Of a stretch of DNA of 47,263 nucleotides, positions 159 through 33,368 are shown piece after piece (the stretch's first letter is position 1; every line of letters starts with the position of its first letter). The notes below the pieces were generated by a model. That model did not search any database. It was not told where the DNA came from and saw nothing but the letters and a program-made list of their open reading frames with translations. The translations under genes were made by a program, and so were the position numbers. This DNA comes from a virus: positions 1-47,263 of IMG/VR virus record IMGVR_UViG_3300030108_001617; one strand, written 5' to 3'.

Positions 159-419
159 ATGACGTGGGAAGATATAGTTAAAGTGGATTTGTTTGATTAC
201 GACCCCACTTTTAAAAATAAAAATATAACTCCAGAGCAAAAAAACCGTTTTTATAATGATGCTAAAAATGGAATAAAAACTTTAAATGAACTAGAAAAAC
301 TAATAAAAGAACATGACCATCACTTTTTTCCCGAAATTGGTCTTTATCCTTTCTTAAATACCCATTTTCCTCAAATAAAAAAAAGACTAGAGGAAATAAT
401 GAAAGATGCTAGGAGATGA
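159..419 (+). CDS. Small tagged protein, 86 aa, unknown function
   Basis: The protein begins MTWEDIVKVDLFDYD, the first copy of the shared N-terminal tag. An in-frame GTG at 150 would add three residues, but ATG 159 is preferred because GGTGAT (149-154) lies four bases before it, as in many genes here. The body is charged and helical (TPEQKNRFYNDAKNG, then LNELEKLIKEHDHHFFPE) and ends in a basic helix. No domain recognised. It heads a run of tagged genes and is probably co-transcribed with them. Cargo of the viral head is an inference from the tag only. Confidence 0.8.
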   Translation: MTWEDIVKVDLFDYDPTFKNKNITPEQKNRFYNDAKNGIKTLNELEKLIKEHDHHFFPEIGLYPFLNTHFPQIKKRLEEIMKDARR

Positions 420-424
420 TTAAT

Positions 425-850
425 ATGGCGTGGGAAGATATATTGAAAACTAACAATAATAGGTTACGGGAGATAGAACGCCGACACCATGCACAGAAGT
501 TTGACCGCATGCGAGCAGAAAGACGAGCAGGTAGAAGAGGCCATACTGATAGTATGTCTGTAATGAATCTAAAGCAAGCGATTAGTAATATTGCAGAATT
601 AGAAAAAGAGCATCCTAAACCTCTGAATAGGAAAGAAATTGAAAAGATACTTGACCGTATGCCCGAATACTTCGGATTCGATTTTCGGAAAAAACTTATT
701 TTACAGGCAAATGGTAACAAGTTAACTTTAGAAGAATGGCGTGAAGTGTATGATAAATATAAGAAAGAACACAAAGCAAGAATGAAACTTTTTGATGAAG
801 ACTTGGCAAGGTTTGAGTATTTTTACGGCGATGAAGCACGTCAAGCATAA
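425..850 (+). CDS. Tagged basic helical protein, 141 aa
   Basis: Starts MAWEDILKTNNNRLRE at ATG 425, preceded by GGAGATGATTAAT; an in-frame ATG at 416 inside that ribosome-binding region would give a short extension and is less likely. After the tag comes a strongly basic stretch (ERRHHAQKFDRMRAERRAGRRG) consistent with nucleic-acid contact, then a helical region with EWREVYDKYKKEHKARM. No family recognised. Codon choice inside the tag differs from the previous gene (ATA TTG against ATA GTT), so the shared peptide is not just a recent DNA copy. Confidence 0.8.
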   Translation: MAWEDILKTNNNRLREIERRHHAQKFDRMRAERRAGRRGHTDSMSVMNLKQAISNIAELEKEHPKPLNRKEIEKILDRMPEYFGFDFRKKLILQANGNKLTLEEWREVYDKYKKEHKARMKLFDEDLARFEYFYGDEARQA

Positions 851-876
851 GAAGATTATAAAACAGGGTGATTAAT

Positions 877-1674
877 ATGAGTTGGAAAGACATCCTAAAG
901 GCAAAGAAGCCAGATTTCATAGACCTTGATGGTGATGGAAATACAACGGAGCCAATGTCTGAGGCTGCTAAAGATGTGGAGAAGCAAACTGGAAAATTCA
1001 ATGTAATACAGAATCAAAAACTTGGGGAGATGTTTGATGAAATTACTGAGATGGTAAACAAACTGAAAGAGATAGCACACGATGAACAAGATTTGAAATA
1101 TTTAATGTCACTCAATCCTCAAAAATTAAAACAAGTATTAGAGGCTAGGAAAAGAGTATCACAAGGCATTCCTTCTGATGCGGGTCAAAGACCAAGGATT
1201 CCTCAATTTAAAAAAATTTTAAAGGGATATAAAGATGACATGGAAGAACTAAGAGAAAGAGGTTTAATATCTGGTTATGACCCAAAGGACGTAATTGAAT
1301 ATGAAAAGGGGTATGAAGACAGGCAAATAAAAAGAATGCTTACTACGATTAGGGAATGGGCCAAAAAATTTGATTGGAATAAGGCTGATATAGAAGACCC
1401 AATTAGGTTTAGACAAAATAGAAATAGAATGTATCATGTATTGGAACAACTTGATTATGATACTTTAATAACAGAAGTCCATTATGAGATAAATAACTAT
1501 TTTGAAGATTTAGATGGTGAAGATGAACTTGTGTTAGGCACTTTAGATGGTGGACTTCGTGACCCAGTTAGCAACTTTAAACTAAATCCAAAACTTAAAA
1601 ACAACCCTATGAAATACAAAAATGAAATATCACAATTATATAGAGATTTAACATTTGAGAGGTTTTTAAAATGA
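877..1674 (+). CDS. Tagged protein with an EF-hand-like loop, 265 aa
   Basis: Begins MSWKDILKAKKPDF at ATG 877 after GGTGATTAAT. Directly behind the tag is DLDGDGNTTE (residues 16-25), a good match to a calcium-binding EF-hand-type loop. I recall similar I-D-(L/I)-(D/N)-x-D-G-x-x-T-E-P-M segments in small proteins of marine phages. The rest is long, charged and helical, with repeated Lys/Glu segments (residues 50-75, 115-150) and an acidic patch YFEDLDGEDELVLGTLDGG. No enzymatic motif seen. It overlaps the next gene by ATGA. The loop could bind Ca2+ or be a structural relic. Molecular function unknown. Confidence 0.8.
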   Translation: MSWKDILKAKKPDFIDLDGDGNTTEPMSEAAKDVEKQTGKFNVIQNQKLGEMFDEITEMVNKLKEIAHDEQDLKYLMSLNPQKLKQVLEARKRVSQGIPSDAGQRPRIPQFKKILKGYKDDMEELRERGLISGYDPKDVIEYEKGYEDRQIKRMLTTIREWAKKFDWNKADIEDPIRFRQNRNRMYHVLEQLDYDTLITEVHYEINNYFEDLDGEDELVLGTLDGGLRDPVSNFKLNPKLKNNPMKYKNEISQLYRDLTFERFLK

Positions 1675-1922
1675 GTTGGCAAGATATTTTAAAAAGAGAA
1701 CTTGGTAAAAAACTTCAAGCAGAAATTTTAGAGCATTTAAAATTTTATCCTAAATCAACAGTTACCGAAATTATACGGTCTTTAAAGAAAAGAAACTTAA
1801 AGCCAAGAAGCCTCAAACTTTTTTTAGATAACCATTCTAAAGTAACGTCCGAAACTTCTTTTGGTCAGCCAAAATCATCGGGATTGAGTGTAAAACAAAT
1901 GAGGTATTCTTTACAGGAGTGA
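1671..1922 (+). CDS. Tagged protein with winged-helix-like core, 83 aa
   Basis: Starts MSWQDILKRELGKKL at ATG 1671, overlapping the previous stop by four bases. The body EILEHLKFYPKSTVTEIIRSLKKRN, taken as helix-turn-helix, resembles the early part of a winged-helix or replication-control domain (L-x-x-x-P-K-S-T-V-T-E-I-I). That assignment is weak. The C-terminal third is polar with Ser/Lys. If it binds DNA, it could be a packaged or injected DNA-binding protein. No family recognised with confidence. Confidence 0.75.
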   Translation: MSWQDILKRELGKKLQAEILEHLKFYPKSTVTEIIRSLKKRNLKPRSLKLFLDNHSKVTSETSFGQPKSSGLSVKQMRYSLQE

Positions 1923-1926
1923 TAAA

Positions 1927-2355
1927 ATGAGTTGGGAAATAATATTAAAAGTGGACATCCAAGGTTTAAAGCGTTCATTCCCTGCTTTGAAAAATTTACC
2001 CGATGATGCGATTAGAGAATTTGCAAGCAAAATTAATGACCCAATGTCAGTTAGCATTAACGTTAAAAGATTAGTATCAGAATTGCAACAAAAGTATAAG
2101 ACAGGAATGGGGCAAAAACCTGTTCCTAAAACATCTCATTTTGGTCAAACGTCAAGACTTATGAAAGAAGATTGGTTCCAACAACTCAAAGCAACAGGTA
2201 CAGTTACTTCAAGCAGTGCTGCTGGTGGAGGCCCATCAGATTCAGCAACAACAGAAGGGATTTCTTTCTTTGATTCCCAAGGAAATCCTAGTTTAAGATT
2301 TAGAAAAAGGAGGAAAAAGCATGGTAAGAAAGATGACAAAAAAAGAGGCTGTTGA
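1927..2355 (+). CDS. Tagged protein with basic C-terminus, 142 aa
   Basis: Begins MSWEIILKVDIQGLKRSFPAL; ribosome-binding sequence AGGAGTGATAAA. Residues 15-60 form a helical segment with PDDAIREFASKINDP. The middle is Ser/Gly/Thr-rich and probably disordered (TVTSSSAAGGGPSDSATTEG). The end is strongly basic (RFRKRRKKHGKKDDKKRGC). It overlaps the next gene by 35 nt, and that gene has a strong AGGAGG inside this coding sequence. The layout, tag then linker then poly-basic tail, suits a DNA-binding internal protein, which is inference. Confidence 0.75.
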   Translation: MSWEIILKVDIQGLKRSFPALKNLPDDAIREFASKINDPMSVSINVKRLVSELQQKYKTGMGQKPVPKTSHFGQTSRLMKEDWFQQLKATGTVTSSSAAGGGPSDSATTEGISFFDSQGNPSLRFRKRRKKHGKKDDKKRGC

Positions 2356-3418
2356 TAAAATCAACAGATGGGAAGACGAGGCCGAGGCTGCAAGAGGGGC
2401 TAAAATTGGTTCTGGAAAAACAGATATGTCCCTTTACGATTATGCCATCGGGCATGGAGCCCGTTCTAGAAGTGCAGATAGAGGAGGTAGGAGAAGAGTA
2501 TCTGGACTTGGGAAATTTATTAATCCAATCTTGAATATTTTCAGTGGTGGGATAGATAAAGAAATAACCAATCAAGAATTTAGACTTATTAGGAATGCTA
2601 TTCGCACTGGTAATCAAATTAGTGACACTAGTGATAATAATCCTAGAAATATACGTAATAGTTATAATGCTGCTGGTAAAGGTGAACCAGTAAGAAGGGA
2701 AGTGCAATATGGGCATTGGTATAGTGAAAGATATAAACAAGGCCAAAAAAATAAAGGGACTCCATCTAAAGCAACCTATGGTAAAAAAGAAGCATGGTCT
2801 AGTACAAGTAAAGGTCAAGCAAAGCCTCCACTTTGGCAAGTATTTTTTGCTAAAAGAAATGAAAAATATGCGGGCGGGGGAAAGGTCATGTCTATTGGCC
2901 TATTTCCACTTTTAGAAGAAATTATTGAAGGGTTAGAAGGCGACCATTTAGAATTGGCTATACCTATGAGTTCATTGCAAAAAGAAAAAACATATCAAGA
3001 ATTAGTGAATATTAAATCTTTAAGAAAAGAATTAGACCAATTCTTAAGAATGGCTAATATATATACAAAGGCAAAATCAACAGATAAAGAAGGTAAAGAA
3101 ATAGATGTTGTTAGAATAAAACCTAGAGAGTTTCAAAGGTTTTTAGAAAAGAAATATACTGTTGATGGAACAGAAGGAGATTCAATAAAAACTTTAGCAG
3201 GTAAAAAAGATGCTGCTGGAGGAGTCAAAGAATTTAGTTTACCTAGATTAAGTGCGACTCAGATAGAAAGATTGTTACTTGCTGCACATGGGCCAGATGC
3301 TAAAGTTAGAGGGGTTCCAATTCAATGGTTTAATTTATGGAGAAGTGCGCCCCAAACAGCGAAAAATAGAGATTTGCAAAAAATGCATTGGCGAGATTAT
3401 TTACAGGTGGTATTATGA
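2321..3418 (+). CDS. Unknown protein, 365 aa, tag-like peptide at C-terminus
   Basis: ATG 2321 follows a strong AGGAGG at a spacing of seven. It is one of the few cluster members without the N-terminal W-x-x-I-L-K peptide, but it ends KMHWRDYLQVVL, a related aromatic/acidic/hydrophobic pattern. The N-terminal third is Gly/Arg/Ser-rich (RSRSADRGGRRRVSGLGKF). Residues about 190-250 are helical with hydrophobic runs (IGLFPLLEEIIEGLEGDHLEL). The C-terminal part is mixed alpha/beta. No family recognised. It overlaps the next gene by ATGA, so the C-terminal peptide is only a few bases from the next gene's N-terminal tag. Confidence 0.75.
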   Translation: MVRKMTKKEAVDKINRWEDEAEAARGAKIGSGKTDMSLYDYAIGHGARSRSADRGGRRRVSGLGKFINPILNIFSGGIDKEITNQEFRLIRNAIRTGNQISDTSDNNPRNIRNSYNAAGKGEPVRREVQYGHWYSERYKQGQKNKGTPSKATYGKKEAWSSTSKGQAKPPLWQVFFAKRNEKYAGGGKVMSIGLFPLLEEIIEGLEGDHLELAIPMSSLQKEKTYQELVNIKSLRKELDQFLRMANIYTKAKSTDKEGKEIDVVRIKPREFQRFLEKKYTVDGTEGDSIKTLAGKKDAAGGVKEFSLPRLSATQIERLLLAAHGPDAKVRGVPIQWFNLWRSAPQTAKNRDLQKMHWRDYLQVVL

Positions 3419-3801
3419 GTTGGGAAATCATCTTAAAAGATTTGGCTTGTCCTAGAGCGACACAAGATTTGAAACTTAATACTAAGAATAGGAATTCTGC
3501 AATCAAGGCAAAACACATCCAATATGGCCCCCTTAACTTAGAAGATGAAGATTATTGGGTTAGGGCAGCAGACCATTGGAACACATCAGTAGAAGTTGCT
3601 AAAAAATCAAAATGTTCTAACTGTATTGCTTTTGATATTAGTGATAGAATGATGGATTGTATGCCTCTTGAGGGAGACTTAGGTTATTGCTGGATGCACC
3701 ATTTCAAATGTCACAAAGACAGAACTTGTTACACTTGGGCTGCTGGAGGCCCGATAGATGATGATAAAACATCAAAAGAAAATCAAATGAAAGGGAAGTA
3801 A
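3415..3801 (+). CDS. Tagged Cys-rich protein, 128 aa
   Basis: Starts MSWEIILKDLACPRA at ATG 3415; upstream in-frame codons lie in the previous gene and would bury the tag. The distinctive part is the C-terminal half with six cysteines: C67-x2-C70, C82, then GYCWMHHFKCHKDRTC (C92, C99, C105) followed by TWAAGGPI. I recall this Cys/His pattern (C-x2-C ... GYC-x5-FKC-x5-C-x2-W) in small conserved proteins of many phages. Metal binding, zinc or an iron-sulfur cluster, is likely but unproven. A tagged metal protein is unusual if the tag marks packaged cargo. Confidence 0.8.
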   Translation: MSWEIILKDLACPRATQDLKLNTKNRNSAIKAKHIQYGPLNLEDEDYWVRAADHWNTSVEVAKKSKCSNCIAFDISDRMMDCMPLEGDLGYCWMHHFKCHKDRTCYTWAAGGPIDDDKTSKENQMKGK

Positions 3802-3802
3802 T

Positions 3803-4006: not shown

Positions 4007-4011
4007 TTGAA

Positions 4012-4326
4012 ATGACTTGGCAAGATATTCTTCGCAAAAAGAGCAAGGCCCGAAGAAAGAGCGGCTCTAAGCAGCGTAAAAAAAAGCGAAGTGGGGATAA
4101 TTTTGCTAGAGAAAAAGAGTCTGGTCTTCATGGTTGGTTTTCAAGGAGAGGCGGAAAACAAAAGAAGGGCGGAAAAACTCAAGGCGGTTGGATTGCTTGT
4201 GGAACCTGTAATGATAAAGGTGGGCCAAAACCTTGTGGTAGGGCTGATGCCTCTAAAGGAAGAAAAAGAAGATGTAGGCCAACTTGTGCCGCATGTAAAA
4301 CTTACAAAAGGAGGAAAGGCACATGA
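4012..4326 (+). CDS. Tagged Arg/Lys- and Cys-rich protein, 104 aa
   Basis: Starts MTWQDILRKKSKARR at ATG 4012; an in-frame GTG at 4003 belongs to the ribosome-binding stretch GTGATTGAA. Residues 9-36 are almost all Lys/Arg/Ser. The second half has six cysteines (C63-x2-C66, C75, C88, C92-x2-C95) in a frame resembling a phage family with pattern GGW-x-x-C ... PCGRA-x-A-S-x-G ... CRP. It probably folds around metal. Highly basic, hence a candidate nucleic-acid-binding cargo. It overlaps the next start by ATGA. Confidence 0.8.
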   Translation: MTWQDILRKKSKARRKSGSKQRKKKRSGDNFAREKESGLHGWFSRRGGKQKKGGKTQGGWIACGTCNDKGGPKPCGRADASKGRKRRCRPTCAACKTYKRRKGT

Positions 4327-4811
4327 GTTGGATGACTGTTTTAAAACAAACTGCCTTAGTTGGTAAAAAGGCTAGGAATCCAAATATTTGGTTACACAGA
4401 AAGGCCACAACTAGAAATTTAGGTAGGCCAATGAAATCTAAACCACAAACTCTTTCTACTATTCCTATCGAAGTTCCACAAGAACAGTTTGAAAAATATT
4501 ACAGTTTTTTTGCTGAGTTTTTTGCTAATGGTGGTTGGGAAATGTATTCCCAAGGTACTTTACAACAAGGCTTAACTAATGCCTCAGTTGAAAGAGTGAT
4601 AAAAGATTTTGAAAGGGGAAAGATAAAAACTAATAGAAAATACTCTCCAGAACTTGATACACAAACAGAAAAAATGTTTTTCAAAACTATCAAACAAATG
4701 AAATTAACTGGTGAATTATTAATGACTGGCAGTAGAGATAGAATAAGAGAAGGTAGAGATATGCTTCGGTACGCTAAAGATTTAGAAACTTCATATGATA
4801 GGGGTCGATAA
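4323..4811 (+). CDS. Tagged helical protein, 162 aa
   Basis: Starts MSWMTVLKQTALVGKK, a slightly diverged tag (M-T in place of E-D). The next 40 residues are basic and Pro-containing, then a helical domain (QFEKYYSFFAEFFANGGWEMY; VERVIKDFERGKIK; KMFFKTIKQMKLTGELLM). No family recognised. It sits between two basic tagged proteins and shares their coupling. Confidence 0.75.
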   Translation: MSWMTVLKQTALVGKKARNPNIWLHRKATTRNLGRPMKSKPQTLSTIPIEVPQEQFEKYYSFFAEFFANGGWEMYSQGTLQQGLTNASVERVIKDFERGKIKTNRKYSPELDTQTEKMFFKTIKQMKLTGELLMTGSRDRIREGRDMLRYAKDLETSYDRGR

Positions 4812-4813
4812 TT

Positions 4814-5167
4814 ATGGAATGGTTTGATGTTCTGAAAAAAAAGAAAAAAAGCCCAAGGCAGAAGGCTATAGAAAGAGCAAAAAAGAAAGGACTCAAAGGA
4901 ATAAATCAATCTCAGAGATTAAAGAAAGACCCAGAAAAATCTCATCATGTTATGGCTTTTGAAAATAATAAAGCAAAATATATGAAATTTGGCCAAAAAG
5001 GAGTAAAAACTAACCAAACTGCTGGACAAAGAGAGGCTTTCAAGGCTCGACATGCTAAGAATATCAAGCGTGGAAAGATGTCTCGTGCTTATTGGGCGAA
5101 TAAAGTAAAATGGAGTCCAAGTAAAACTAAAGAAAAGAAAAATAAAAATTGGAGAAAGGGTTCATAA
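4814..5167 (+). CDS. Tagged very basic protein, 117 aa
   Basis: Starts MEWFDVLKKKKKSPRQ, an F-D variant of the tag. Body: YMKFGQKGVKTNQTAGQREAF, then KARHAKNIKRGKMSRAYWANKV. I recognise the latter as related to a widespread phage family (F-x-A-R-H-x-x-x-x-x-x-K-x-x-x-x-Y-W-x-x-K-x-x-W), often seen near head genes or as part of internal proteins, biochemical role unknown. The protein is extremely Lys-rich throughout. Its stop TAA overlaps the next ATG by one base. Confidence 0.85.
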   Translation: MEWFDVLKKKKKSPRQKAIERAKKKGLKGINQSQRLKKDPEKSHHVMAFENNKAKYMKFGQKGVKTNQTAGQREAFKARHAKNIKRGKMSRAYWANKVKWSPSKTKEKKNKNWRKGS

Positions 5168-5553
5168 TGTGGTTTGATTTGTTGAAAAGCATTAGTTATT
5201 CTGCTATTGTTCTCGATGACCCGTCCAAAAAAAAATTATTACCACTTGTTCCAAAGGGTTGGAAACCATACGCTCATCACATGACTATTAAACTCGGCCC
5301 ATTAAAAGAAGACTCACAGTATAAAGTTGGTGATAAAGTATCAATGAATATTACTGCTGTTGGTATGGATGATAGGGCAATGGCTGTCAAAGTAGATGCC
5401 AAAAGAGAAGATAGTAGAGGATTCCCTCATGTTACTGTTGCAACTAGTCCCGATGGTGGAAAACCATTTCATTCTAATAAAATTCCAGAAAAGAATTTTA
5501 AACCTTTTAGTGGCACTTTAACTGGGGTAGTAGAGGAGATTCCTAACAAGTGA
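5167..5553 (+). CDS. Tagged 2H-phosphoesterase (LigT-like) enzyme, 128 aa
   Basis: Starts MWFDLLKSISYSAIVLD at ATG 5167. Two H-x-T motifs define the 2H-phosphoesterase fold: H38-M-T40 in AHHMTIKLG and H88-V-T90 in FPHVTVAT. Between them is a beta-strand segment GDKVSMNITAVGMDDRAMAV. Known members hydrolyse 2'-5' or 2',3'-cyclic phosphodiester bonds, and the anti-CBASS phage protein Acb1 degrades cyclic oligonucleotides with the same catalytic pair. Substrate cannot be read from the sequence; RNA repair or cyclic-nucleotide destruction are both possible. This is the clearest enzyme carrying the tag, so the tag is not limited to DNA-condensing proteins. Confidence 0.8.
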   Translation: MWFDLLKSISYSAIVLDDPSKKKLLPLVPKGWKPYAHHMTIKLGPLKEDSQYKVGDKVSMNITAVGMDDRAMAVKVDAKREDSRGFPHVTVATSPDGGKPFHSNKIPEKNFKPFSGTLTGVVEEIPNK

Positions 5554-5557
5554 TATT

Positions 5558-5863
5558 ATGTGGTTTGATTTGTTGAAGGCTCCTCGCATCCCTAGAAAAA
5601 AAGGCCAGCATAGAGGCTCAAAATCACATTCAGATTTATACACAGATGAAAACCCAAGAGGAACAATACAGGGTCTAAAATTTGCAACTGTAAAAGATGC
5701 AAAAGCATCAGTAAACAAGATAAAATCTAGCGGTAAGTCTCACGCTCATAAAACTCAAGCAGCCGTTGCTATGGAACAGAGAGCAAGGGAAATGGGCAAG
5801 ACCGCACAGGCAAATGTATATCGTTCATTTATTGAACAACAAAAAAAGAAAACTAAGAGGTGA
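5558..5863 (+). CDS. Tagged conserved phage protein, 101 aa
   Basis: Starts MWFDLLKAPRIPRKKG; the first seven residues are identical to the previous gene, with slightly different downstream codons. The body (HSDLYTDENPRGTIQGLKF, then SGKSHAHKTQAAVAMEQRA and YRSFIEQQKKKTKR) matches a family I know from many phages, of unknown function. I infer that here the tag has been added to that core. Basic overall. Its stop TGA lies inside the ribosome-binding GGTGAT of the next gene. Confidence 0.85.
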   Translation: MWFDLLKAPRIPRKKGQHRGSKSHSDLYTDENPRGTIQGLKFATVKDAKASVNKIKSSGKSHAHKTQAAVAMEQRAREMGKTAQANVYRSFIEQQKKKTKR

Positions 5864-5867
5864 TACT

Positions 5868-6023: not shown

Positions 6024-6676
6024 TAACTAGAAGAAGATGTAAAGTTTGTCAACATGAAGACAGAACTCAAATAGAAGAAATGGTTAATTCCATGACTAAG
6101 ACTTGTGACGACTTAGATTTAGAATTCAACTGGCCAAGTGGAACAACTGCTCGCCATATGAGAAATCATGCTCAAGGATATGATGATGCATCTAATCCTC
6201 AATGTGCTGTTTGTACACACCCAGAAAGAGCCAAAATTGAAACCGATATTAGTGAAGGCAAAATTGCCGCCAGTGAAGTGGCAAATCAGTTAGGGACGAC
6301 AGATGCCCAAATTAGAAAACACATGAGGTCACATTTACAGCCTCTTGTTCAGAAATCTGCGGCAACTCAAATTGCTCGTAAAGAAATTGATGAAATAGAT
6401 ATGCTTAGTACAAACTTGCAAAGATTAGATGCTAAATTAGATGAGTGGTTTCAAATGCCAACCCATACCACAAAAGAAATAGATTCATTGACTAAACTTG
6501 CAAAAGAGATTCGTGAGTCTTTGAAATATCTTATGGAGTTCAAGGGTAAACTTATTCACCGAAGGCAGGACACCATCATCGTAGCGCAGATGCAAATTGT
6601 CCAAGAGGTGTTGGCGCAAAACCATCCTCAAGTGTGGTTAGACGTTAAGGAAAAGATGAAGGAGAAGTTACAATGA
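6020..6676 (+). CDS. Double zinc-knuckle protein, candidate small terminase subunit, 218 aa
   Basis: ATG 6020 follows GAGGAAGATAAC; no tag. Two tandem units share the plan C-x2-C-x-H-x-x-R-x-x-I-E ... R/K-H-M-R-x-H: the first at residues 7-50 (CKVCQHEDRTQIEE ... ARHMRNH), the second at about 60-106 (CAVCTHPERAKIET ... IRKHMRSH). A coiled region and a C-terminal helix follow. Such units occur in phage proteins next to terminases and look like DNA-binding zinc fingers with a helix-turn-helix (SEVANQLGTTDAQIRKH). I infer the DNA-recognition subunit of packaging. TerL lies four genes downstream, and a transcription-factor role is not excluded. Confidence 0.6.
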   Translation: MITRRRCKVCQHEDRTQIEEMVNSMTKTCDDLDLEFNWPSGTTARHMRNHAQGYDDASNPQCAVCTHPERAKIETDISEGKIAASEVANQLGTTDAQIRKHMRSHLQPLVQKSAATQIARKEIDEIDMLSTNLQRLDAKLDEWFQMPTHTTKEIDSLTKLAKEIRESLKYLMEFKGKLIHRRQDTIIVAQMQIVQEVLAQNHPQVWLDVKEKMKEKLQ

Positions 6677-6873
6677 GTTGGGAAGCAATACTAAAAAGAG
6701 CCGTTTATAGAAATAAACACACAGGAAAGCAATATGCATTGGAAGGTTACGATATGATTAAAGAACCTAATAAAACACATCGAGTCGCTATTATGGTTGA
6801 TGATAGTGGTAAAAAACAAAGATTTGAACAAAAATATATTGATGCTCATTTTGATATGGTCGGAGAAGAATAG
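6673..6873 (+). CDS. Tagged small protein, 66 aa
   Basis: Starts MSWEAILKRAVYRNKHTGK, overlapping the previous stop by ATGA. The body looks like a small beta-sheet domain (YALEGYDMIKEPNKTHRVAIM, then DDSGKKQRFEQKYID). No family recognised. Size and neighbours are typical of the tagged set. Confidence 0.75.
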   Translation: MSWEAILKRAVYRNKHTGKQYALEGYDMIKEPNKTHRVAIMVDDSGKKQRFEQKYIDAHFDMVGEE

Positions 6874-6884
6874 GGGAGAATAAC

Positions 6885-7205
6885 ATGAGTTGGGAACAAG
6901 TAGTTAAAAAATTAGGTAACTGTTATCAATCTGCTTATTCTTATATTTTTGATAAGGCTATGAAAGGAAATGAAAATTTAATTCTTGTTCACGCAGATGT
7001 GATTGGAACAGGTAAAGATGTCAAAGGTGTATGTTATGGACATGCGTTTGTTTTAGATGGTAACATGGTTAGAGATACAGAAGCAAAAGCCGATATACCT
7101 TATCAATTATATAAGGCATTAGGACAAATAACAAATGAAAAAAGATATACTTTTGAGGAAATGTTACAAGAGGCAAGCAAGTCTGGACATTATGGGCCTT
7201 GGTGA
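6885..7205 (+). CDS. Tagged Cys/His/Asp protein, papain-like fold suspected, 106 aa
   Basis: Starts MSWEQVVKKLGNCYQSAY. C13 (GNCY), H53 (CYGHAFVLDG) and D64 (MVRDTE) line up as a Cys-His-Asp set in the order used by papain-like/NlpC-type thiol hydrolases. The pattern GNCY ... LVHADV ... GHAFV ... V-x-D ... GPW matches a small phage and mobile-element family that I recall, without an established function. The Cys immediately follows the tag. Possible roles are a peptidase, amidase or deamidase acting on a host target. Catalysis is inferred from residue order only. Confidence 0.7.
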   Translation: MSWEQVVKKLGNCYQSAYSYIFDKAMKGNENLILVHADVIGTGKDVKGVCYGHAFVLDGNMVRDTEAKADIPYQLYKALGQITNEKRYTFEEMLQEASKSGHYGPW

Positions 7206-7211
7206 TTTAAA

Positions 7212-8513
7212 ATGGTCTGGCAAGATGTTCTCCTCAAACAAGTAAAATTTCCAATCGCTGTAAGAGATTGGGTAGATACTTTTGAGTCAGAAGATACATT
7301 GAATAAATTTAAACAAGTATTACAACAGTATGTAGATTTTGGCCCTAATGAACTTCAAGGTGTTAATGAAAACGCAATAAAAACAATGAGGCAAAACATT
7401 AGTGATAAAAAATATGCTGAAGAAATTGCTTTGTATGCTAGACGTAGAAACAAGAAAATATTAGGTCAACAACTAACAGGTAAGAAATCAGATAATAGAA
7501 TTATTAAATTAGTTGAATCGCATTTAAAAAATATTTTTGAAATTTCAAGAGAATCTACGGGAGTAAGTAGAGGTGAACAACTCAATGATTTACTTGATAG
7601 TATAGTTCCAAAACTAAGACAAAACAATCCAAACTTTGTAGAAATAGAAAAAGAGGTTAATGAATTTCTTCAAAAAACAAATCAAACTAACAAACCATCT
7701 GTAATAAAAAAACCATTAGATAAAAGGATTCGAGGGCAGATTAAAATCATAAGTAATAAAATTTATGAATACCACACAGGAAGTAAGCCAGACAACGTTT
7801 CTGATAGGGTAGTTTCTAGAACTCCTATTCCTACATTATTTAAATTATTTAATCTAGGTGCAGCAGGACAATATAGATTAGTAACAACTGAATTCACTCC
7901 AGAAAATTTAATTAAATTTTATAGAAATGTTGTAACTAATATAACTCAAACTAGAGTATTATTGAAAGACAAAGTTGGTAAAATTTATCCTCATTTATAT
8001 TCTCCCGATACAAAGAGAGGATTGACTGAGGAATTTAAAAAAGCAATACAGGGCGATAAAGTTTCATTGAAAGGGTTTGAACAATTTGGTTATGTTGATG
8101 TGCCTTTGTCAGAAGTTAAAGAATCTCAAAAGTTAATAGACGATAAAGTAGCAATAAAAGATAAAGATAAACTTTGGATTCAACTTAGACGGGCCAAAAA
8201 ATTGCAAAGAAGAAATGTAATTTCTGTAGAAAATATTGGTGAAGGTAAACCAATTGTTGTAAATGGTAAACCTATATTATCTGGTAACAAATTACCATTA
8301 GAAAAAAAAGATATATTAGACCAATTTGAAGATTTTACTTTAGATGATAAAAGTTTAAAATATTGGGCTTTTAATCATGTGTCTAAAATTGAAGATTGGA
8401 AAACAAAAACCCAAGAGATAGTGCAAGACTTCCTAAAAAAGAAAAGGCGGCCACAATATATCATTGATATTTTAGTAAATTTAAAAATGATTCACAAGGA
8501 GGGAAGCAAATGA
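7212..8513 (+). CDS. Large tagged helical protein, 433 aa
   Basis: Starts MVWQDVLLKQVKFPIAV, a tag variant with one extra Leu. The rest is rich in Lys/Glu/Asn with predicted helices and no cysteine cluster or nucleotide-binding motif. A segment at residues 195-245 (SDRVVSRTPIPTLFKLFNLG ... LIKFYRNVV) may be a folded domain. It lies directly before the 698-aa unknown and is coupled to it by ATGA. No family recognised; possibly a large internal head protein. Confidence 0.75.
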   Translation: MVWQDVLLKQVKFPIAVRDWVDTFESEDTLNKFKQVLQQYVDFGPNELQGVNENAIKTMRQNISDKKYAEEIALYARRRNKKILGQQLTGKKSDNRIIKLVESHLKNIFEISRESTGVSRGEQLNDLLDSIVPKLRQNNPNFVEIEKEVNEFLQKTNQTNKPSVIKKPLDKRIRGQIKIISNKIYEYHTGSKPDNVSDRVVSRTPIPTLFKLFNLGAAGQYRLVTTEFTPENLIKFYRNVVTNITQTRVLLKDKVGKIYPHLYSPDTKRGLTEEFKKAIQGDKVSLKGFEQFGYVDVPLSEVKESQKLIDDKVAIKDKDKLWIQLRRAKKLQRRNVISVENIGEGKPIVVNGKPILSGNKLPLEKKDILDQFEDFTLDDKSLKYWAFNHVSKIEDWKTKTQEIVQDFLKKKRRPQYIIDILVNLKMIHKEGSK

Positions 8514-14979: not shown

Positions 14980-15221
14980 GTTGGGAAAGTATAATTAAAC
15001 TTAGATTCAGAGATTTCAAATCAGAGGCTTATAAAAAATACAATTCTCAAATAGAATTACTTAATGAAACTATAAGTAAATTAGAAGATGAAGTAAAAAC
15101 CTATGTAGAAGGAGATGCTGAAAAATTTGAGCAATTCATGGATGAGATAAATGCGGATTTAAAAAAAGTATCTCAAAAAGTAATTAAAAAAGTAAATGAT
15201 GTAAGAACATATGACTGGTGA
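14976..15221 (+). CDS. Tagged coiled-coil protein, 81 aa
   Basis: Starts MSWESIIKLRFRDFKSEAY at an ATGA overlap with the portal stop. Residues 25-75 form a coiled coil (LLNETISKLEDEVKTYV; FMDEINADLKKVSQKVIKKV). First tagged gene after the packaging block, which shows that the tag is not confined to the 5' cluster. Could be a small scaffold or portal-associated internal protein. No family recognised. Confidence 0.75.
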   Translation: MSWESIIKLRFRDFKSEAYKKYNSQIELLNETISKLEDEVKTYVEGDAEKFEQFMDEINADLKKVSQKVIKKVNDVRTYDW

Positions 15222-17181: not shown

Positions 17182-17438
17182 CATGGGAAGATATAGTAAA
17201 AGGGCCAGCAGATGTAAAATTAATAAATAATTACATAATGTTCATAAATAATACAAATGCGTTTGAAAAAATAGAAATTCTTTTTGGTCAACCTTATGAT
17301 GAGATGGAAGGCCATAGAAAATCATATGTTAAAAAATTCATGGATGTTCATACTGATGTAGTTAGATTATGGGGTATGCTTGACCTTGAAAACAGACAAA
17401 AGTTAGTAGATGCGGCAATCGACAAATACGGTAGGTAA
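17178..17438 (+). CDS. Tagged helical protein, 86 aa
   Basis: Starts MTWEDIVKGPADVKL; its eight-residue tag is identical to that of the first tagged gene at 159 although they are 17 kb apart and unlike afterwards. AGGAGGAAGAAGT lies upstream. The body is a compact helical domain (INNYIMFINNTNAFEKIEIL; MDVHTDVVRLWGMLDLENRQ). No family recognised. Confidence 0.8.
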   Translation: MTWEDIVKGPADVKLINNYIMFINNTNAFEKIEILFGQPYDEMEGHRKSYVKKFMDVHTDVVRLWGMLDLENRQKLVDAAIDKYGR

Positions 17439-17443: not shown

Positions 17444-17677
17444 ATGAGTGAAGAAAATGAAGTATTAGATATTCTAAAACAATTAGTTGATAGAATCAAA
17501 ACATTAGAAAAACACGTTTACAATGAAGATAATGTGTTAATGAAATCTGGTTGGGTGCAAGCAAAATCTCCTTCACCATCAATAGATAATGATAGAACAG
17601 GAATGCCTAAGAATATTGGAGATAAATCTTGGGGCGAATTGCATGATATAATTTCAAAAATGGAGGGTCGACAATGA
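17444..17677 (+). CDS. Small coiled-coil protein with scaffold-like C-terminal peptide, 77 aa
   Basis: The N-terminus MSEENEVLDILKQLVDRIKT contains DILK in a coiled-coil helix. The C-terminus KSWGELHDIISKMEGRQ closely resembles the last residues of the protease-scaffold protein (MSWDELHQVIDNLENR). The shared pattern S-W-x-E-L-H-x-(I/V)-I-x-x-(L/M)-E-x-R suggests both bind the same partner, perhaps the inner face of the capsid protein. No domain recognised. Confidence 0.75.
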   Translation: MSEENEVLDILKQLVDRIKTLEKHVYNEDNVLMKSGWVQAKSPSPSIDNDRTGMPKNIGDKSWGELHDIISKMEGRQ

Positions 17678-20824: not shown

Positions 20825-22123
20825 GTGTTAGGAGGAGTTGTAACAACAAAATCAAATACGTTTGATATATTGAAGTCACAAGATGATTTAATAATTGCAG
20901 GATATGCTTCAATAGAAATGGTAGACAAACAAAATGATTTAATAACTCTCGAAGCGTTGGAGGAAGCAGTACAAAAATTCATGGCACAAAATGAATATAG
21001 AAACGTAATGACCAACCATTCAAATGTTCAAGTAGGAGAAGTAGTAAACAAATATAGAGATTCAAAAGGACAAGTATATAAAACACAAGTAGATGATGTA
21101 GGATTTTTTGTAGTGATAAAATTAAGGGATGATATAGAAAAAGCAAAGGAAGTATCGAGGGACATAAGACAAGGAACATTAAGGAGTTTTAGTATCGGTG
21201 GACAAGCATTAGAAAAAAGAACAGTCAGAAATCAAGAAATGGGGGAATACAACGAAATTAGTAAATTGGAACTACATGAAGTAACAATCTGCGAAAAAGG
21301 AATAAACCCAGAAGCAAAATTTGACATATTGAAACAAGACAAAAATAAGGTGAAAAAAATGAATGAACTAGAAAAAGCACTTGGCGAATTAAATGAACTA
21401 GTAAAGAACATGAATTTGTCCAAGGAAGAAGAAGATAACGAAAAAGGAATGCATGGAGACCATGAAAAAGGAATGCACGAAGAAAAAGGAATGCATGAAG
21501 AAAAAATGGGCTATGGTGGCGACAAAGAAATGGCTGATGATGAAGACGATGATGTAGAAGACATGTCTTACAAAGGCGATAAGAAAGATAAAGATGATGA
21601 CCTAGAATCCACTAAGAAAGAAGATGATGATGACGAAAATACTGAAAAAGCATTAGACCTCAACACTTATTCACAGGCTGGAGAAGTCATCTTTGAAAAT
21701 GGTAGAACAAAAGAGTCTGAACAAGCGGATGCATATCCAGATAGTATTCGTAGGTCAATGCAACCTCCTACATTAGATTTGAGTGCTGCTAACTTAGAAA
21801 AAGCATATGAAGCATTTAGAGCAGAAAAGTTAGAAGCAATGGCTTACGAAAATCTATCCAAAACATTTAGTGACAGATTTGAGTCTGAATTAAAAGCAGA
21901 AGATGAAGCAATTGCAAAAGCAAACTACGATGCTAAAGCAGAAGTAGCAGAACTAAGAGAGCAATTTGCATCATTGAAGAAATCATTAACAGAAGAAAAA
22001 CAACAAGTAATTGCAAAACAAGAACAAATTGTAAGTAATTTAAATATTCCAAGTACTGACGATATTGTAAAAATGAGTTGGGATGAATTACATCAAGTAA
22101 TTGATAATTTGGAGAACAGGTGA
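20825..22123 (+). CDS. XkdF-like prohead protease fused to scaffold, 432 aa
   Basis: The N-terminal 165 residues are an HK97-type (XkdF-like) serine protease: candidate catalytic H65 (MTNHSNVQVGEV) and S121 or S123 (LRSFSIGG), followed by KLELHEVTICEKGINPEA. FDILK occurs directly before (residues 13-17) and directly after (166-170) the domain, resembling the cargo tag. Residues 171-432 are scaffold: coiled coil, an acidic Met/His/Glu repeat region, a second coiled coil and the C-terminal MSWDELHQVIDNLENR. GTG 20825 is the only standard start before the domain; the GGAGGAG at 20831 lies inside the gene, which suits leaderless translation. The protein should shape the prohead and then cleave itself and partners. 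Confidence 0.85.
   Translation: MLGGVVTTKSNTFDILKSQDDLIIAGYASIEMVDKQNDLITLEALEEAVQKFMAQNEYRNVMTNHSNVQVGEVVNKYRDSKGQVYKTQVDDVGFFVVIKLRDDIEKAKEVSRDIRQGTLRSFSIGGQALEKRTVRNQEMGEYNEISKLELHEVTICEKGINPEAKFDILKQDKNKVKKMNELEKALGELNELVKNMNLSKEEEDNEKGMHGDHEKGMHEEKGMHEEKMGYGGDKEMADDEDDDVEDMSYKGDKKDKDDDLESTKKEDDDDENTEKALDLNTYSQAGEVIFENGRTKESEQADAYPDSIRRSMQPPTLDLSAANLEKAYEAFRAEKLEAMAYENLSKTFSDRFESELKAEDEAIAKANYDAKAEVAELREQFASLKKSLTEEKQQVIAKQEQIVSNLNIPSTDDIVKMSWDELHQVIDNLENR
21440..21507 (+). repeat. Short tandem repeat in scaffold
   Basis: Three near-copies of a unit reading GAAAAAGGAATGCA(T/C)G(G/A)AGA encode EKGMH-(G/E)-(D/E). They are followed by a Asp/Glu/Lys-rich low-complexity stretch. Likely a flexible acidic linker between protease and the distal scaffold; copy number may vary between related viruses. 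Confidence 0.7.
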
Positions 22124-22128
22124 TTAAA

Positions 22129-23562
22129 ATGGTAAGAACAATAAACACAATAAGAGATTTAGAAGCGGCTACATACGGCTTCCAAAACAACTCAATTCTA
22201 AAAGGTACTGGAGTAGTTGGTGCAGCAGGAATTGGTGTAACTGGACACGATGCAGCAATAGGAATAAACGGAACAGCATCTCCAGCAATGACTGATTTAT
22301 ACAATGTAGTATATGGTCAAAAAGTTTGGTCAATGTTGAACCAAGAAATAAACCCACTAGCAATTCTTCCAAAAAGACCGTACACAACAAGCGGTTGGAG
22401 AATTCTAAAAGCAAGACCATTTGGTGGAGCAGATGCAAAATTCGGTTTAGCACATGAATTTTCTGACAACTCTACTGGTGATGCTTTAACAGCAGGTAGA
22501 AGTGGAACACAAGTTGACAGGCCAATGCCAGATGAAATTGGTGGTGTTAGGGAAAATGCAGGAATAGGTGGAGCAGCATCAGACGGTGATTTGACACCAG
22601 TTGCACCAGAATACACAAAACTATTCATGACTCCTAAAACAATTGCTCACATGTTTGAATTCAGTGAATTAGCATCTGAAATGGCAAAGATTGATGATGG
22701 TATCGGTGACTTAAGAGCATTGATTCGTGAAGATATGGGTAAATTCCATGCAGAAGTTCAATCAAAAATGTTAGTAATGCCTCTAGAAGCATATGACTTA
22801 GATGCTGGATTAGCAGCAGGTAGTTCCGCTAACGGTACTGTTGCATTCACAGATATGGAAAGAAACTTAACATCATTGATGAAAATCGTTTCTTCCTCAG
22901 CAGAAGTTCATGAAATGGGTGCGCAACATTTAGTAGCAGCAGCAGATGGTGCTAACAGTGTAGACACAGTTAAACTATATGGTAACACAGATAGAGCAGC
23001 AGACACAGCATTAGGTTCCTCAGTAGGATTTATGGATGCAGTAGTTAATCTTGGAGATGGATATGCAGCAGCAGAACAAAGAGTATTAACACTTTCAATA
23101 ATGAACAATTTAATTCAAACACTAAGAACAAATGGAGCAAGTCCTAAAGTTATTATGACTGGATATGATACAATTCAAGCAATTGCTGACTTATTGCAAA
23201 GCCAAGAAAGATTCATGGATGCTAAACACATTGTACCAACACATAATGGTGTAAAAGGTGTTGCTGGTGCAGAAGTTGGATTCAGAGTTGCAACATACTA
23301 TGACATCCCACTAATTCCAGCAAAAGACATGCCAAGCACATGCCACTTATCATTATCAACAGGATTAAGTGATATGTTATTCTTAGACACTGACCACTTA
23401 TGGTACTCCGTACTAAAACCAACTCAATACTTTGAAGATGGTATCAATCATGGAAACCCATTCGGCATTGGTAAACTAGGGAATCAAGGAATGTACCGAA
23501 CTATTGGTGAAGTAGGCTGTTCTTTCTTCAAAGGACAAGGTAAAATCACCAACCTAAAGTAA
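22129..23562 (+). CDS. Major capsid protein, HK97 fold, 477 aa
   Basis: ATG 22129 follows GGTGATTAAA, directly after the protease-scaffold. Length and order are right for an HK97-type shell protein. The N-terminus (TINTIRDLEAATYGF) is followed by a Gly/Ala-rich linker, an E-loop-like region (SGWRILKARPFGGADAKF), a spine-helix segment (MGKFHAEVQSKMLVMP) and the A-domain (VIMTGYDTIQAIADLL). SILKGTG at residues 22-28 could be a processing site if ILK is a protease signal, though that is speculative. Ala/Gly-rich composition is typical of capsid proteins. Confidence 0.85.
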   Translation: MVRTINTIRDLEAATYGFQNNSILKGTGVVGAAGIGVTGHDAAIGINGTASPAMTDLYNVVYGQKVWSMLNQEINPLAILPKRPYTTSGWRILKARPFGGADAKFGLAHEFSDNSTGDALTAGRSGTQVDRPMPDEIGGVRENAGIGGAASDGDLTPVAPEYTKLFMTPKTIAHMFEFSELASEMAKIDDGIGDLRALIREDMGKFHAEVQSKMLVMPLEAYDLDAGLAAGSSANGTVAFTDMERNLTSLMKIVSSSAEVHEMGAQHLVAAADGANSVDTVKLYGNTDRAADTALGSSVGFMDAVVNLGDGYAAAEQRVLTLSIMNNLIQTLRTNGASPKVIMTGYDTIQAIADLLQSQERFMDAKHIVPTHNGVKGVAGAEVGFRVATYYDIPLIPAKDMPSTCHLSLSTGLSDMLFLDTDHLWYSVLKPTQYFEDGINHGNPFGIGKLGNQGMYRTIGEVGCSFFKGQGKITNLK

Positions 23563-24277: not shown

Positions 24278-24571
24278 TTGTCTTGGGAAGATATACTCAA
24301 AGTAAGAGTTCCAGTAGGCAGAGCGCAAGGCTCTGATGAACGATTAGACATCTTTATGGATGTATCTAAAAGAATATTAGCAGGTGCTATGATTCTTGAT
24401 GCATTTGAAGATGCAGGTAAATCTGTAACAGTAGGGAAAGAATTGCTAATAAAGAATTTAGATTATACACCTCAAGAAATGAATACTGTCGAAAAGTTAT
24501 ATGATGATATGGCTGGTGGAAAATGGGGAGATACACTACTTAATGAAAGGTTTGAACAAGAAAATCTTTGA
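24278..24571 (+). CDS. Tagged helical protein, 97 aa, TTG start
   Basis: With TTG 24278 the protein begins M-S-W-E-D-I-L-K-V-R-V-P, the consensus tag exactly. ATG 24272 would add two residues but overlaps the previous stop and sits in the ribosome-binding region GAGGAATGATT. The body is helical (DERLDIFMDVSKRILAGAMI; VGKELLIKNLDYTPQEMNTV). A tagged gene located downstream of the capsid gene. No family recognised. Confidence 0.75.
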   Translation: MSWEDILKVRVPVGRAQGSDERLDIFMDVSKRILAGAMILDAFEDAGKSVTVGKELLIKNLDYTPQEMNTVEKLYDDMAGGKWGDTLLNERFEQENL

Positions 24572-25298: not shown

Positions 25299-25307
25299 GT
25301 GTGTTAG

Positions 25308-26179: not shown

Positions 26180-26180
26180 G

Positions 26181-29904: not shown

Positions 29905-29908
29905 TATT

Positions 29909-30472: not shown

Positions 30473-30494
30473 GTAAGTATGTAGGTGAAAAGAA

Positions 30495-32282
30495 ATGGTA
30501 ACGAATAGTGAAGTATGGATGGGGTCTGGTGCATCAGTAACATTAGTCCCAGAGAGTGATTTATTTTTAGGATATAGAGCGGCTGGAATGGATGCAACTG
30601 TTGACCTTTTTGGTGGCAGTGCTAGTCTTTCTGCTGCTAGTGGGGATGCAACTAAGGGCAGTTTTTTCTTAGACACAGATGATTTTATGTCACAAACAGG
30701 CGGTGCTGGTGCTGCTTTTAAAGCCCATTATTTATTAGTTGAAGATTTATATACAGGGTGTATTGCTGATTTTTATGATAGCAGTAATAATTTAATTTTA
30801 AGTAGAGTTATTTCTGGAAATGACTCAGAACGTATTTATTTCAATGAAACTTTTCAATCTTCTAGTTTAGGTGCTAATTCTTATGTTATCATAAGGAAAT
30901 TCGGCACTCCAGTAGTTGGCCCTAAAACAAGTGATGCTGGCGGTCAAGGTCAACCTACGTTACTCGCAGATAATTGGTTGGGAATCGTAAACACGATTAC
31001 TTTTCCTAATCCAGAAATAGAAATGTTACAAAAGAATCTTGCTCTTGGAGGAAGTAGAAATTTTACTTTTCAATTTAAAGGAATGGAAAATGCAGCAGGA
31101 GGGTCTTTTGAAGTTAGTGCTAATCAAGGAACGTGGTTATATTATGCATTAGGTAAATGTACAAATGTTAATGCTAGTTTTACACCATCAAGCAACAACC
31201 ATTTGACCGATAATTTTGTAGGTTCAAATAGTGGCACTAATGCTTTCTTACTAGACACTGGTAGCACAGGAGATAACACTGCGTTTTTAGAACAAGGGCC
31301 AATATTTTACAGAAAGATAGGAGATACTGTTTGCCCACCAATAACTAAAGGAGATTTTTCTGGAAGTGGCGCACAAAATCAAATGGAAGAATTAACAGAA
31401 CCAGAAGAAAATAGTTCTGGAATCATTACAAATGCAATAACTTATACTTTTGGGGAAGCCAATGGTAGTGAATTACCTTCATTCACATTAGAACACGTAA
31501 TTGAAAAAGGTTCACCTACACAATCTTTATTGTCTGATGGTTCAGACCAAACATATTCAACTACTGCTAATGATGGCACAACAACTACTTTGAGAGTAAG
31601 TGATGAAGTATTTTCAAGAATAGCAACAGGTAATATGGTTAACACTTTAACTCTAATGGCTAATGAGGGTGAAGAACTTAAAATGAGTATGGACTTGATG
31701 ACCAAACAAATTGTTAAACCTCAAAGTAATGATACATCTTCTGAGGCTGCTTCTTATTTTGCTAGGAGAGGAGTAACTGATGAAAGAGATTTAATTAATT
31801 TCGGTTCAGCGATAGGTGGGGCAAACAACTCTTTTGAGGGGTTTCTAAAACCATTCTTTTTCCATGATGGCAGTTTAAGTATATTCGGTCAACAGTTTTT
31901 GAAAATATCAAACTTTACATTAACAATAAACAATAACTTACAAGAAAAAAGATTTGTCGGTAATTATAAGAAAGGTTCAAAATCAATTTTACCAGCACAA
32001 AGAATGTATGAAATTTCATTAAGTGGTTTAGTTACAGACTCATTATTGTTTGACCAATTATTAAATGAAGCAGAAAACCCAAGCACAAGTGGGCAAATGA
32101 TTGAGTTAACATTTACTAAAGAAAACGGTGAAAACATCACACTTAAATTCACAGATTATTTTGTTAGTACGGCTAACTTCCCAATACCAGAAGATAACAG
32201 CCCATTTATTGTAGATGCTGTAATTATGCCAAGAACTTTGAATACATGTACGGTGAAGACGCACTGGTTATTACAAGGGTGA
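30495..32282 (+). CDS. Major tail tube protein candidate, 595 aa
   Basis: Located between the terminator candidate and the tail chaperone, where the tube gene normally lies. Beta-rich and Ser/Gly/Asn-rich, with GMENAAGGSFEVSANQGTWL, FTLEHVIEKGSPTQSLLSDG and ISNFTLTINNNLQEKRFVGN. The last fits tube proteins that carry repeated N-x-x-K-R/N-strand patterns. At 595 aa it is far longer than simple tubes (150-250), so extra surface domains are likely. GTAGGTGAAAAGAA precedes the ATG. Confidence 0.65.
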   Translation: MVTNSEVWMGSGASVTLVPESDLFLGYRAAGMDATVDLFGGSASLSAASGDATKGSFFLDTDDFMSQTGGAGAAFKAHYLLVEDLYTGCIADFYDSSNNLILSRVISGNDSERIYFNETFQSSSLGANSYVIIRKFGTPVVGPKTSDAGGQGQPTLLADNWLGIVNTITFPNPEIEMLQKNLALGGSRNFTFQFKGMENAAGGSFEVSANQGTWLYYALGKCTNVNASFTPSSNNHLTDNFVGSNSGTNAFLLDTGSTGDNTAFLEQGPIFYRKIGDTVCPPITKGDFSGSGAQNQMEELTEPEENSSGIITNAITYTFGEANGSELPSFTLEHVIEKGSPTQSLLSDGSDQTYSTTANDGTTTTLRVSDEVFSRIATGNMVNTLTLMANEGEELKMSMDLMTKQIVKPQSNDTSSEAASYFARRGVTDERDLINFGSAIGGANNSFEGFLKPFFFHDGSLSIFGQQFLKISNFTLTINNNLQEKRFVGNYKKGSKSILPAQRMYEISLSGLVTDSLLFDQLLNEAENPSTSGQMIELTFTKENGENITLKFTDYFVSTANFPIPEDNSPFIVDAVIMPRTLNTCTVKTHWLLQG

Positions 32283-32287
32283 TTAAA

Positions 32288-32437
32288 ATGGAAAAATCAA
32301 TAGATGCATATCCTTATCGTAGAGAAGCGAAAAATAAACTAGAGGCATTAGAGGCTAAGAAAAATCCTCCTAAGCCAAAGAAACAACGCAAGTCTAGAAA
32401 GAAAAAAGAAGAAACAGTAGTTGAAGAAAATGAGTGA
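32288..32437 (+). CDS. Small Lys-rich protein, 49 aa
   Basis: ATG 32288 follows GGGTGATTAAA. Sequence begins MEKSIDAYPYRREAKNKLEA and ends in a Lys/Arg/Pro-rich stretch and acidic tail (KKKEETVVEENE). Overlaps the next gene by 8 nt. Function unknown; could be a short tail-associated helper. Confidence 0.6.
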   Translation: MEKSIDAYPYRREAKNKLEALEAKKNPPKPKKQRKSRKKKEETVVEENE

Positions 32438-33368
32438 ATGGTTTGATATTCTTAAGCAACAAGGTACGTTGGACGTAGGGCTTCCACCTGCTCAACCAGC
32501 CAATCCTCAAACTCGAAGACCACCGACAGCAGAAGAGCGGCAACAGTATCAGCAACGGCGGCGGCGACTAAACAGAAGACAAGGCCCACCGACAGCAGCA
32601 GAGAGACAACGAATGCAACAACGGCAACGTCAAGGAAAGCCCACACCACAACAAGCAGTACAAGGAATGGCAGGTACAATGACTGTCGATTTATCACCAG
32701 AACAAGGTAATCGACTTCACGCTCAAGCAAAAGAAAACCCACACCCTCAATTTAGAAATTTAAGTAGAGAAGAAGTAACATACCTTCAACAATCTGGTAT
32801 GACTCCAGCACAAATTAGGAATATAAATAATCAAGCCTCATCTCAAAATCAAGTAGCATTCGGTGCAGCAGGACAAAGTTTAGGAAGACGGGCAGCAGCA
32901 GGAGCAGGTAAATTAGCATTAAGAGGGGCAAAAGGTGTTTTAGGTGGTGTGGGTGCTGCGGCAGGAGGAATCAAACAAAGATTAGGGCAAATGGTAACAC
33001 CTAGTCCCAATCAACCAAGAGGCGCACAAGCAAATGTCCCATCACCTACTGAAGTAAATTTGGCTGCTCGACCAGACCCACAAGTTATTCAAAATTTAAA
33101 AAATCAGATACAACAAATGAAAGCGGAAGTTGCTGGTAATCCTGCTGCACGACCAAGACTTGAAGCATTAGAAGCACAATTACAAGCAGAACAAAACAAA
33201 GGTAAACTACATGGTAGAGAGATTATACGACCAGTAGCAGGTAGACCACCAGCAGGAACAAGAACAGGCCCACCACCAAGACGTCCTTTTTCTGCTCAAC
33301 CAACCAGTATTCAAACAATAGCCAAATCAGAATGGTTCAATGTATTATATTCACACCAAACAATGTAA
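32430..33368 (+). CDS. Pro/Gln/Arg-rich protein with tag-like motif at both ends, 312 aa
   Basis: Starts MSEWFDILKQQGTLD and ends AKSEWFNVLYSHQTM, so SEWF-(D/N)-(I/V)-L occurs at both termini. The interior is low complexity: Arg/Gln/Pro repeats (PPTAEERQQYQQRRRRLN; PPTAAERQRMQQRQRQ), a Gly/Ala hydrophobic helix (about 155-185: GAGKLALRGAKGVLGGVGAA) and Pro-rich linkers. Only this protein has a double-ended motif. It sits between tail tube and tail chaperone, so a role bridging head cargo and tail components is possible, unproven. Confidence 0.7.
   Translation: MSEWFDILKQQGTLDVGLPPAQPANPQTRRPPTAEERQQYQQRRRRLNRRQGPPTAAERQRMQQRQRQGKPTPQQAVQGMAGTMTVDLSPEQGNRLHAQAKENPHPQFRNLSREEVTYLQQSGMTPAQIRNINNQASSQNQVAFGAAGQSLGRRAAAGAGKLALRGAKGVLGGVGAAAGGIKQRLGQMVTPSPNQPRGAQANVPSPTEVNLAARPDPQVIQNLKNQIQQMKAEVAGNPAARPRLEALEAQLQAEQNKGKLHGREIIRPVAGRPPAGTRTGPPPRRPFSAQPTSIQTIAKSEWFNVLYSHQTM

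Follow-up and report, generated by a model that had tools for sequence, protein, structure and literature searches.

The 47.3-kb window analysed here, the whole 47,263-nucleotide stretch of the IMG/VR record IMGVR_UViG_3300030108_001617, belongs to a tailed virus that groups with the magroviruses, and twenty of its genes begin with variants of one short peptide, which we call the tag. The window encodes a terminase, a portal, a prohead protease of the S78 type, an SU10-like capsid protein and an ATP-dependent DNA ligase. In a nearly identical contig (L004/G001, 86.6 kb; 99% in TerL) and in eleven other long relatives, PolB lies on the strand opposite TerL (12 of 12). The same layout is described for magroviruses, with the head module and the PolB replication module on opposite strands of a genome of about 90–110 kb (PMC12999244), and we therefore assign the virus to the magroviruses (order Magrovirales). 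These are, according to the literature, tailed viruses of marine Poseidoniales archaea (PMC10160649, PMC12999244). Two matches in genome collections were bins named after bacteria, probably as a result of contamination.

The tag and its place in the window

A sequence-only reading of the window had listed twenty starts at which otherwise unrelated proteins share an N-terminal peptide, encoded by synonymously varying codons. Translation at all twenty coordinates yields the described N-termini (Table 1), two of them from GTG or TTG starts (15436 and 24278), and the synonymous variation inside the tag is seen. The existence of the shared N-terminal tag is thus close to certain. Every strong match in a six-frame scan of the window was the start of a plus-strand gene. 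A strict pattern matched 15 of the 52 automatically called genes against 0.015 expected, as estimated from 2000 shuffles of the residues within each protein, which gave one match at most; the gap between 15 and 20 reflects genes or starts absent from the automatic calls, as well as looser variants of the tag. The core structural genes are untagged, as had been claimed: TerL, portal, protease, major capsid protein, tape measure and fibre carry no N-terminal tag.

Table 1. Tags and associated features in the window
Position	Strand	Feature	Basis or remark
159..182	+	Tag MTWEDIVK, begins 86-aa protein	translation
425..448	+	Tag MAWEDILK, begins 141-aa protein	translation
877..900	+	Tag MSWKDILK, begins 265-aa protein	translation
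1671..1694	+	Tag MSWQDILK, begins 83-aa protein	translation
1927..1950	+	Tag MSWEIILK, begins 142-aa protein	translation
2321..3418	+	Family 26 protein, in nearly all mapped relatives	C-terminal tag in most members
3389..3415	+	Degenerate C-terminal tag WRDYLQVVL of the 2321 gene (gene end HWRDYLQVVL)	alignment
3415..3438	+	Tag MSWEIILK, begins 128-aa protein	translation; tagged orthologue in distant relative L298
3803..3826	+	Tag MRWEEVLK, begins 67-aa basic protein	translation
4012..4035	+	Tag MTWQDILR, begins 104-aa basic Cys-rich protein	translation
4323..4346	+	Tag MSWMTVLK, begins 162-aa protein	translation
4814..4837	+	Tag MEWFDVLK, begins 117-aa basic protein (family 2)	translation, clustering
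5167..5187	+	Tag MWFDLLK, begins 2H-phosphodiesterase-like protein (Pfam tRNA_lig_CPD)	translation, Pfam
5558..5578	+	Tag MWFDLLK, begins 101-aa protein	translation
6673..6696	+	Tag MSWEAILK, begins 66-aa protein	translation
6885..6908	+	Tag MSWEQVVK, begins 106-aa protein	translation
7212..7238	+	Tag MVWQDVLLK (one-residue insertion), begins 433-aa protein	translation
14976..14999	+	Tag MSWESIIK, begins 81-aa coiled-coil-like protein directly after portal	translation
15436..15459	+	Tag VNWQSILK (GTG start), begins 581-aa protein (family 5)	translation
17178..17201	+	Tag MTWEDIVK, begins 86-aa protein	translation
17627..17674	+	C-terminus SWGELHDIISKMEGRQ of small universal family 7 protein (gene 17444-17677), common with scaffold C-terminus	
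20825..22123	+	Prohead protease (S78/XkdF type) fused to scaffold-like C-terminal region; ends MSWDELHQVIDNLENR	
22120..23562	+	Major capsid protein, untagged; conserved N-terminal segment, [LI]LK-[ASG] at residues 26-29	
24278..24301	+	Tag LSWEDILK (TTG start), begins 97-aa protein	translation
32430..32456	+	Tag MSEWFDILK, begins 312-aa protein	translation
33333..33365	+	Second, C-terminal tag-like copy WFNVLYSHQTM in the 32430 protein (protein end SEWFNVLYSHQTM)	

Conservation, position and neighbourhood among relatives

The tag is not a peculiarity of this virus. Among 160 related loci, retrieved with TerL or the capsid protein as query, the motif S-W-x-x-[IVLT]-[LIV]-K is present throughout the magroviruses. 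The strict pattern adjoined a start codon 689 times on the plus strand and once on the minus strand; about two dozen of the plus-strand matches come from a conserved segment inside the capsid protein (WLSVMKP) and were left out of later counts. At least one tag was present in 98 of the 102 loci of 15 kb or more, and the remaining four contain only part of the region. With the motif masked and the proteins clustered, N-terminal tags fell into 253 sequence families. An alignment of one protein from each of 137 families gave the consensus MSWxxILK and nothing further in common, which bears out that the carriers are otherwise unrelated. When related viruses were searched, orthologues retained the tag, and most genes that seemed to be exceptions carried a looser form of it (MSWFETLK or MTWEDMLIK, for example). 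The same tags, on proteins of the same kinds, are present in a relative whose capsid protein is only 42% identical.

Beyond these loci, a degenerate tag pattern run against 2.9 million viral contigs matched 73 stretches. Most have clear magrovirus homology; L242, L246, L263, L269 and L289 do not, and several very short ones are unclassifiable. L242, L263, L269 and L289 all encode one protein beginning MSWEDILKLGSDIAKK, which may reflect chance, transfer or an independent user of the tag. No earlier description of the tag was found in the searchable literature, nor in the passages of the magrovirus papers that were searched.

Members of the same family give a dN/dS of 0.106 for the tag and 0.286 for the protein bodies, with silent sites near saturation. 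Choosing tags by pattern lowers the dN/dS of the tag somewhat; the variation at silent sites is independent of that choice. Since dN/dS is lower in the tag than in the bodies and silent sites vary freely, the tag is selected at the protein level, as the sequence-only reading had supposed. At codon 2, serine is AGT in 95% of the tags, compared with 65% in untagged genes. Otherwise, codons in the tag show the start-proximal bias common to all genes; only the AGT preference is stronger.

The idea of an N-terminal peptide holds for the N-terminal copies, yet the tag is not strictly N-terminal. C-terminal tags occur in twelve families. In family 26, the C-terminal tryptophan is invariant in all 19 aligned members, and one clade carries an extra N-terminal tag. 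An AlphaFold2 model of a family 26 relative (pLDDT 83.5) consists of an ordered domain and a disordered tail, with the tag as a short helix at the end of the tail; its fold matched no entry in the PDB, and three viral matches were unnamed. A tag can also lie between fused domains. The protein with the C-terminus KWFYLMRR in L039 and L041 is joined, in L069 and L077, to a domain that elsewhere begins with MTWFTVIK, and the fused protein has only one WFALVK, between the two domains. Such freedom of position is the behavior of a docking motif.

Tagged genes are confined to the head-gene strand. In the twelve long contigs, the tag is carried by 163 of the 764 genes that lie on the TerL strand, compared with 6 of 772 on the PolB (replication) strand (p=2e-45, a test that counts genes of related genomes as independent). 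In the gene maps, conserved untagged genes (TerL, portal, family 7, ligase, protease, capsid protein and tail genes) alternate with variable genes, many of them tagged, that are placed between the conserved head genes. In rare families 38% of the genes carry the tag, in families present in at least nine of the twelve genomes 12%; some of these “core” families are mixed clusters, and the contrast is probably understated. The tag is absent from the tape measure, the fibre and most tail genes.

A putative loading signal for the prohead

Taken together, the tag is very likely a protein-level docking or targeting motif. By analogy with known head-loading systems, we consider it fairly probable that this portable motif loads cargo proteins into the prohead. 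The tag would bind its carrier to the prohead interior during head assembly; putative partners are the complex of scaffold or protease and the capsid protein's inner face. Varied accessory proteins would thereby be packaged along with the DNA and reach the next archaeal cell. The peptide itself could form a short amphipathic helix, with the tryptophan, hydrophobic residues three and four positions on and then the lysine, joined to its carrier by a flexible linker. A helix and linker of this kind would work at the start of a protein, at its end, or between fused domains. The cargo-loading signal proposed by the sequence-only reading is in line with the selection on the peptide, the strand confinement, the untagged core genes and the retention on orthologues, while its strictly N-terminal form does not stand; prohead binding, presence in the virion and delivery are what we infer from these patterns.

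The protease may point to the docking partner. An S78 protease is encoded in all 22 large relatives, and a scaffold role of its C-terminal region is suggested by sequence features. The C-terminus of the protease-scaffold follows M[SD]WxDIHxL (Trp in 93%) and that of family 7 KMSWDDIxxxV. The two termini are alike (SW-x-[DE]-[IL]-[HN]), and SW-x-[DE]-[IL] is common to both of them and the tag. Tentatively, the tag might imitate the tip by which scaffold proteins hold the shell, and family 7 may be a second scaffold component.

Several points weigh against loading into the head. The tag and the scaffold C-terminus resemble each other over a short stretch only (SW-x-[DE]-[IL]), which may be a coincidence. 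A few tagged genes are located in the tail-connector region. Gene order and protease are the same in the cultured haloarchaeal relatives HVTV-1 and HCTV-1, and none of their late-region genes that were checked carries the tag. Moreover, most tagged proteins have no recognizable domain, and their content cannot show a cargo function. Among 137 tagged representatives, nine Pfam families were matched, once each, including a tRNA nucleotidyltransferase, a PAP2 phosphatase and a 2H phosphodiesterase of the tRNA-ligase type; none of the 137 gave a convincing match to defence systems. The tRNA nucleotidyltransferase and the 2H phosphodiesterase hint at RNA repair cargo, and a role in RNA repair or counter-defence after injection is only a guess.

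Other explanations of the tag were weighed against loading into the prohead. The presence of copies at C-termini, between fused domains and at either end of family 26 proteins rules out a signal in the mRNA or at the translation start, one of the alternatives raised by the sequence-only reading. The start-proximal codon bias, with its preference for AGT, would fit first codons that tune the initiation of late genes. Most of this bias is shared with untagged genes, however, silent sites vary freely, and Shine-Dalgarno sites are as common on tagged as on untagged genes (88% and 77%), so that as a main explanation it is refuted. Hardly more credible is descent of the tagged genes from one ancestral gene, or a copied DNA cassette, with a functionless peptide: the common first codons ATGAGTTGG would be expected, but not the unrelated bodies, the near-saturated silent sites, the dN/dS that is lowest in the tag, or the C-terminal copies. 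Short terminal hydrophobic motifs can act as degrons, and the tag might accordingly be read by a host protease for degradation or quality control. This seems very improbable for a motif that is retained between fused domains and on proteins as widely conserved as family 26, and that is confined to the head-gene strand. A stronger competitor is a localization or partner-binding signal in the infected cell, directed to an assembly site, a membrane or a host factor, with no entry into the particle. Any short docking motif would look alike in this respect. The near absence of tags from the replication strand makes the replication site, in particular, an unlikely destination, and the tag follows the head cluster while sparing the tape measure, the fibre and most tail genes; we regard localization without packaging as unlikely overall.

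Docking in the prohead would be compatible with a further step, in which the prohead protease also cuts after [IVL][LIV]K and frees the cargo inside the head, as in T4. The conserved [LI]LK of the capsid protein, followed by A, S or G, may be a protease site for the trimming of an N-terminal extension. In that case cleavage at the ILK of the tag is conceivable as well, although the residue after the tag lysine differs and shows none of the bias towards small residues seen in the capsid protein. The junction between protease and scaffold ends in an invariant FDILK, and every listed C-terminal tag has at least one residue after the lysine; a cut there would remove a few residues only. The FxILK stretches of the protease were candidates for cleavage sites that we withdrew, since both align with what we take to be strands of ordinary S78 proteases and may be structural. 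The AlphaFold2 model of the capsid protein (mean pLDDT 40) is too low in confidence to place the [LI]LK site, and among solved structures there was no convincing match for the capsid protein and none at all for the protease. On balance, we find cleavage of the tag possible but doubtful.

A broader reading, which we put forward as possible rather than probable, is that a whole virus order uses one position-independent motif, a mimic of the scaffold tip, as a universal loading tag, so that a new gene could become injected cargo by acquiring about seven codons. If true, the tag would single out hundreds of small unknown proteins as effectors or counter-defence proteins that enter archaea together with the genome. 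If loading into the prohead itself is right, sequence alone would tell which unknown proteins of these viruses, some of the most abundant among those of marine archaea, travel inside the particle, turning hypothetical genes into a defined cargo list. Archaeal viruses would then have evolved a targeting strategy like that of T4 independently, with a motif that functions at both the start and the end of proteins.

Known loading systems and neighbouring genes

Encapsulins load cargo by a short terminal peptide that docks inside an HK97-fold shell, much as proposed here; they are cellular compartments, and their peptide is usually C-terminal and of another sequence. The parallel drawn by the sequence-only reading was with phage T4, whose diverse internal proteins have only a capsid-targeting sequence in common (PMC3012670). 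The T4 genes, when translated, show that IPII and IPIII begin with MKTYQEFIAE and IPI with MKTFKEFTST. Like IPI, IPII, IPIII and Alt, the tagged magrovirus proteins are diverse small proteins with a short common N-terminus, and would form a variable cargo set. Both peptides space an aromatic residue and two hydrophobic ones alike (aromatic-x-x-hydrophobic-hydrophobic), and both viruses encode a prohead protease and a scaffold, the latter a presumed role in magroviruses. The likeness ends there. Apart from this spacing, the magrovirus tag is unrelated to MKTYQEFIAE; it is also found at C-termini and internally, and its N-terminal form alone is carried by 253 families, compared with a handful in T4. 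Furthermore, the protease is of the S78 type and not T4 gp21, the hosts are archaea, and in magroviruses loading and cleavage are putative. The T4 parallel is apt in the spacing and, if the tag does load the prohead, in the logic, but not in sequence relationship or N-terminal restriction: with its unrelated sequence, free position and far more carrier families, the tag is not a T4-type capsid-targeting sequence.

Two other phage systems share parts of this picture. An N-terminal peptide also sends the Dar antirestriction proteins of P1 to the head for injection, and the first 30 residues of DarB suffice for capsid targeting; the Dar proteins, however, have no common N-terminal consensus (PMC9024508), whereas that of the magroviruses is nearly invariant. 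SPN3US and phiKZ contain many internal (ejection) proteins, and from some of these the prohead protease removes an N-terminal propeptide, but most such propeptides are longer than 100 residues and no comparable short motif was reported as common to them (PMC5694885). In HVTV-1 and HCTV-1 (the pair L223, L224), large proteins encoded between portal and protease carry a repeated P-x-E-A-P motif, possibly an analogous, unrelated lumen signal.

Several neighbouring genes deserve mention. In all mapped relatives the ATP-dependent DNA ligase (18325-20787) belongs to the head cluster, immediately before the prohead protease, and not to the replication module. A Ras/Arf-like small GTPase (25490-26179) is a conserved member of the head-tail gene cluster. 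The portal (13354-14979) contains a zinc-ribbon-like insertion, with CxxC pairs near residues 50-100 and weak Pfam matches. Between TerL, whose end it overlaps, and the portal, a gene at 11960-13357 is kept in most relatives; it resembles a LAGLIDADG-type endonuclease by eye and had no Pfam match. In most of the 12 long relatives (L163-L222), PolB matches come in two separate pieces, in some with stops between them, and the polymerase may be split or interrupted. Finally, a contig of 184733 bases (L231), about twice the usual magrovirus size, carries a magrovirus TerL and tags, and is either a large relative or an assembly artefact.

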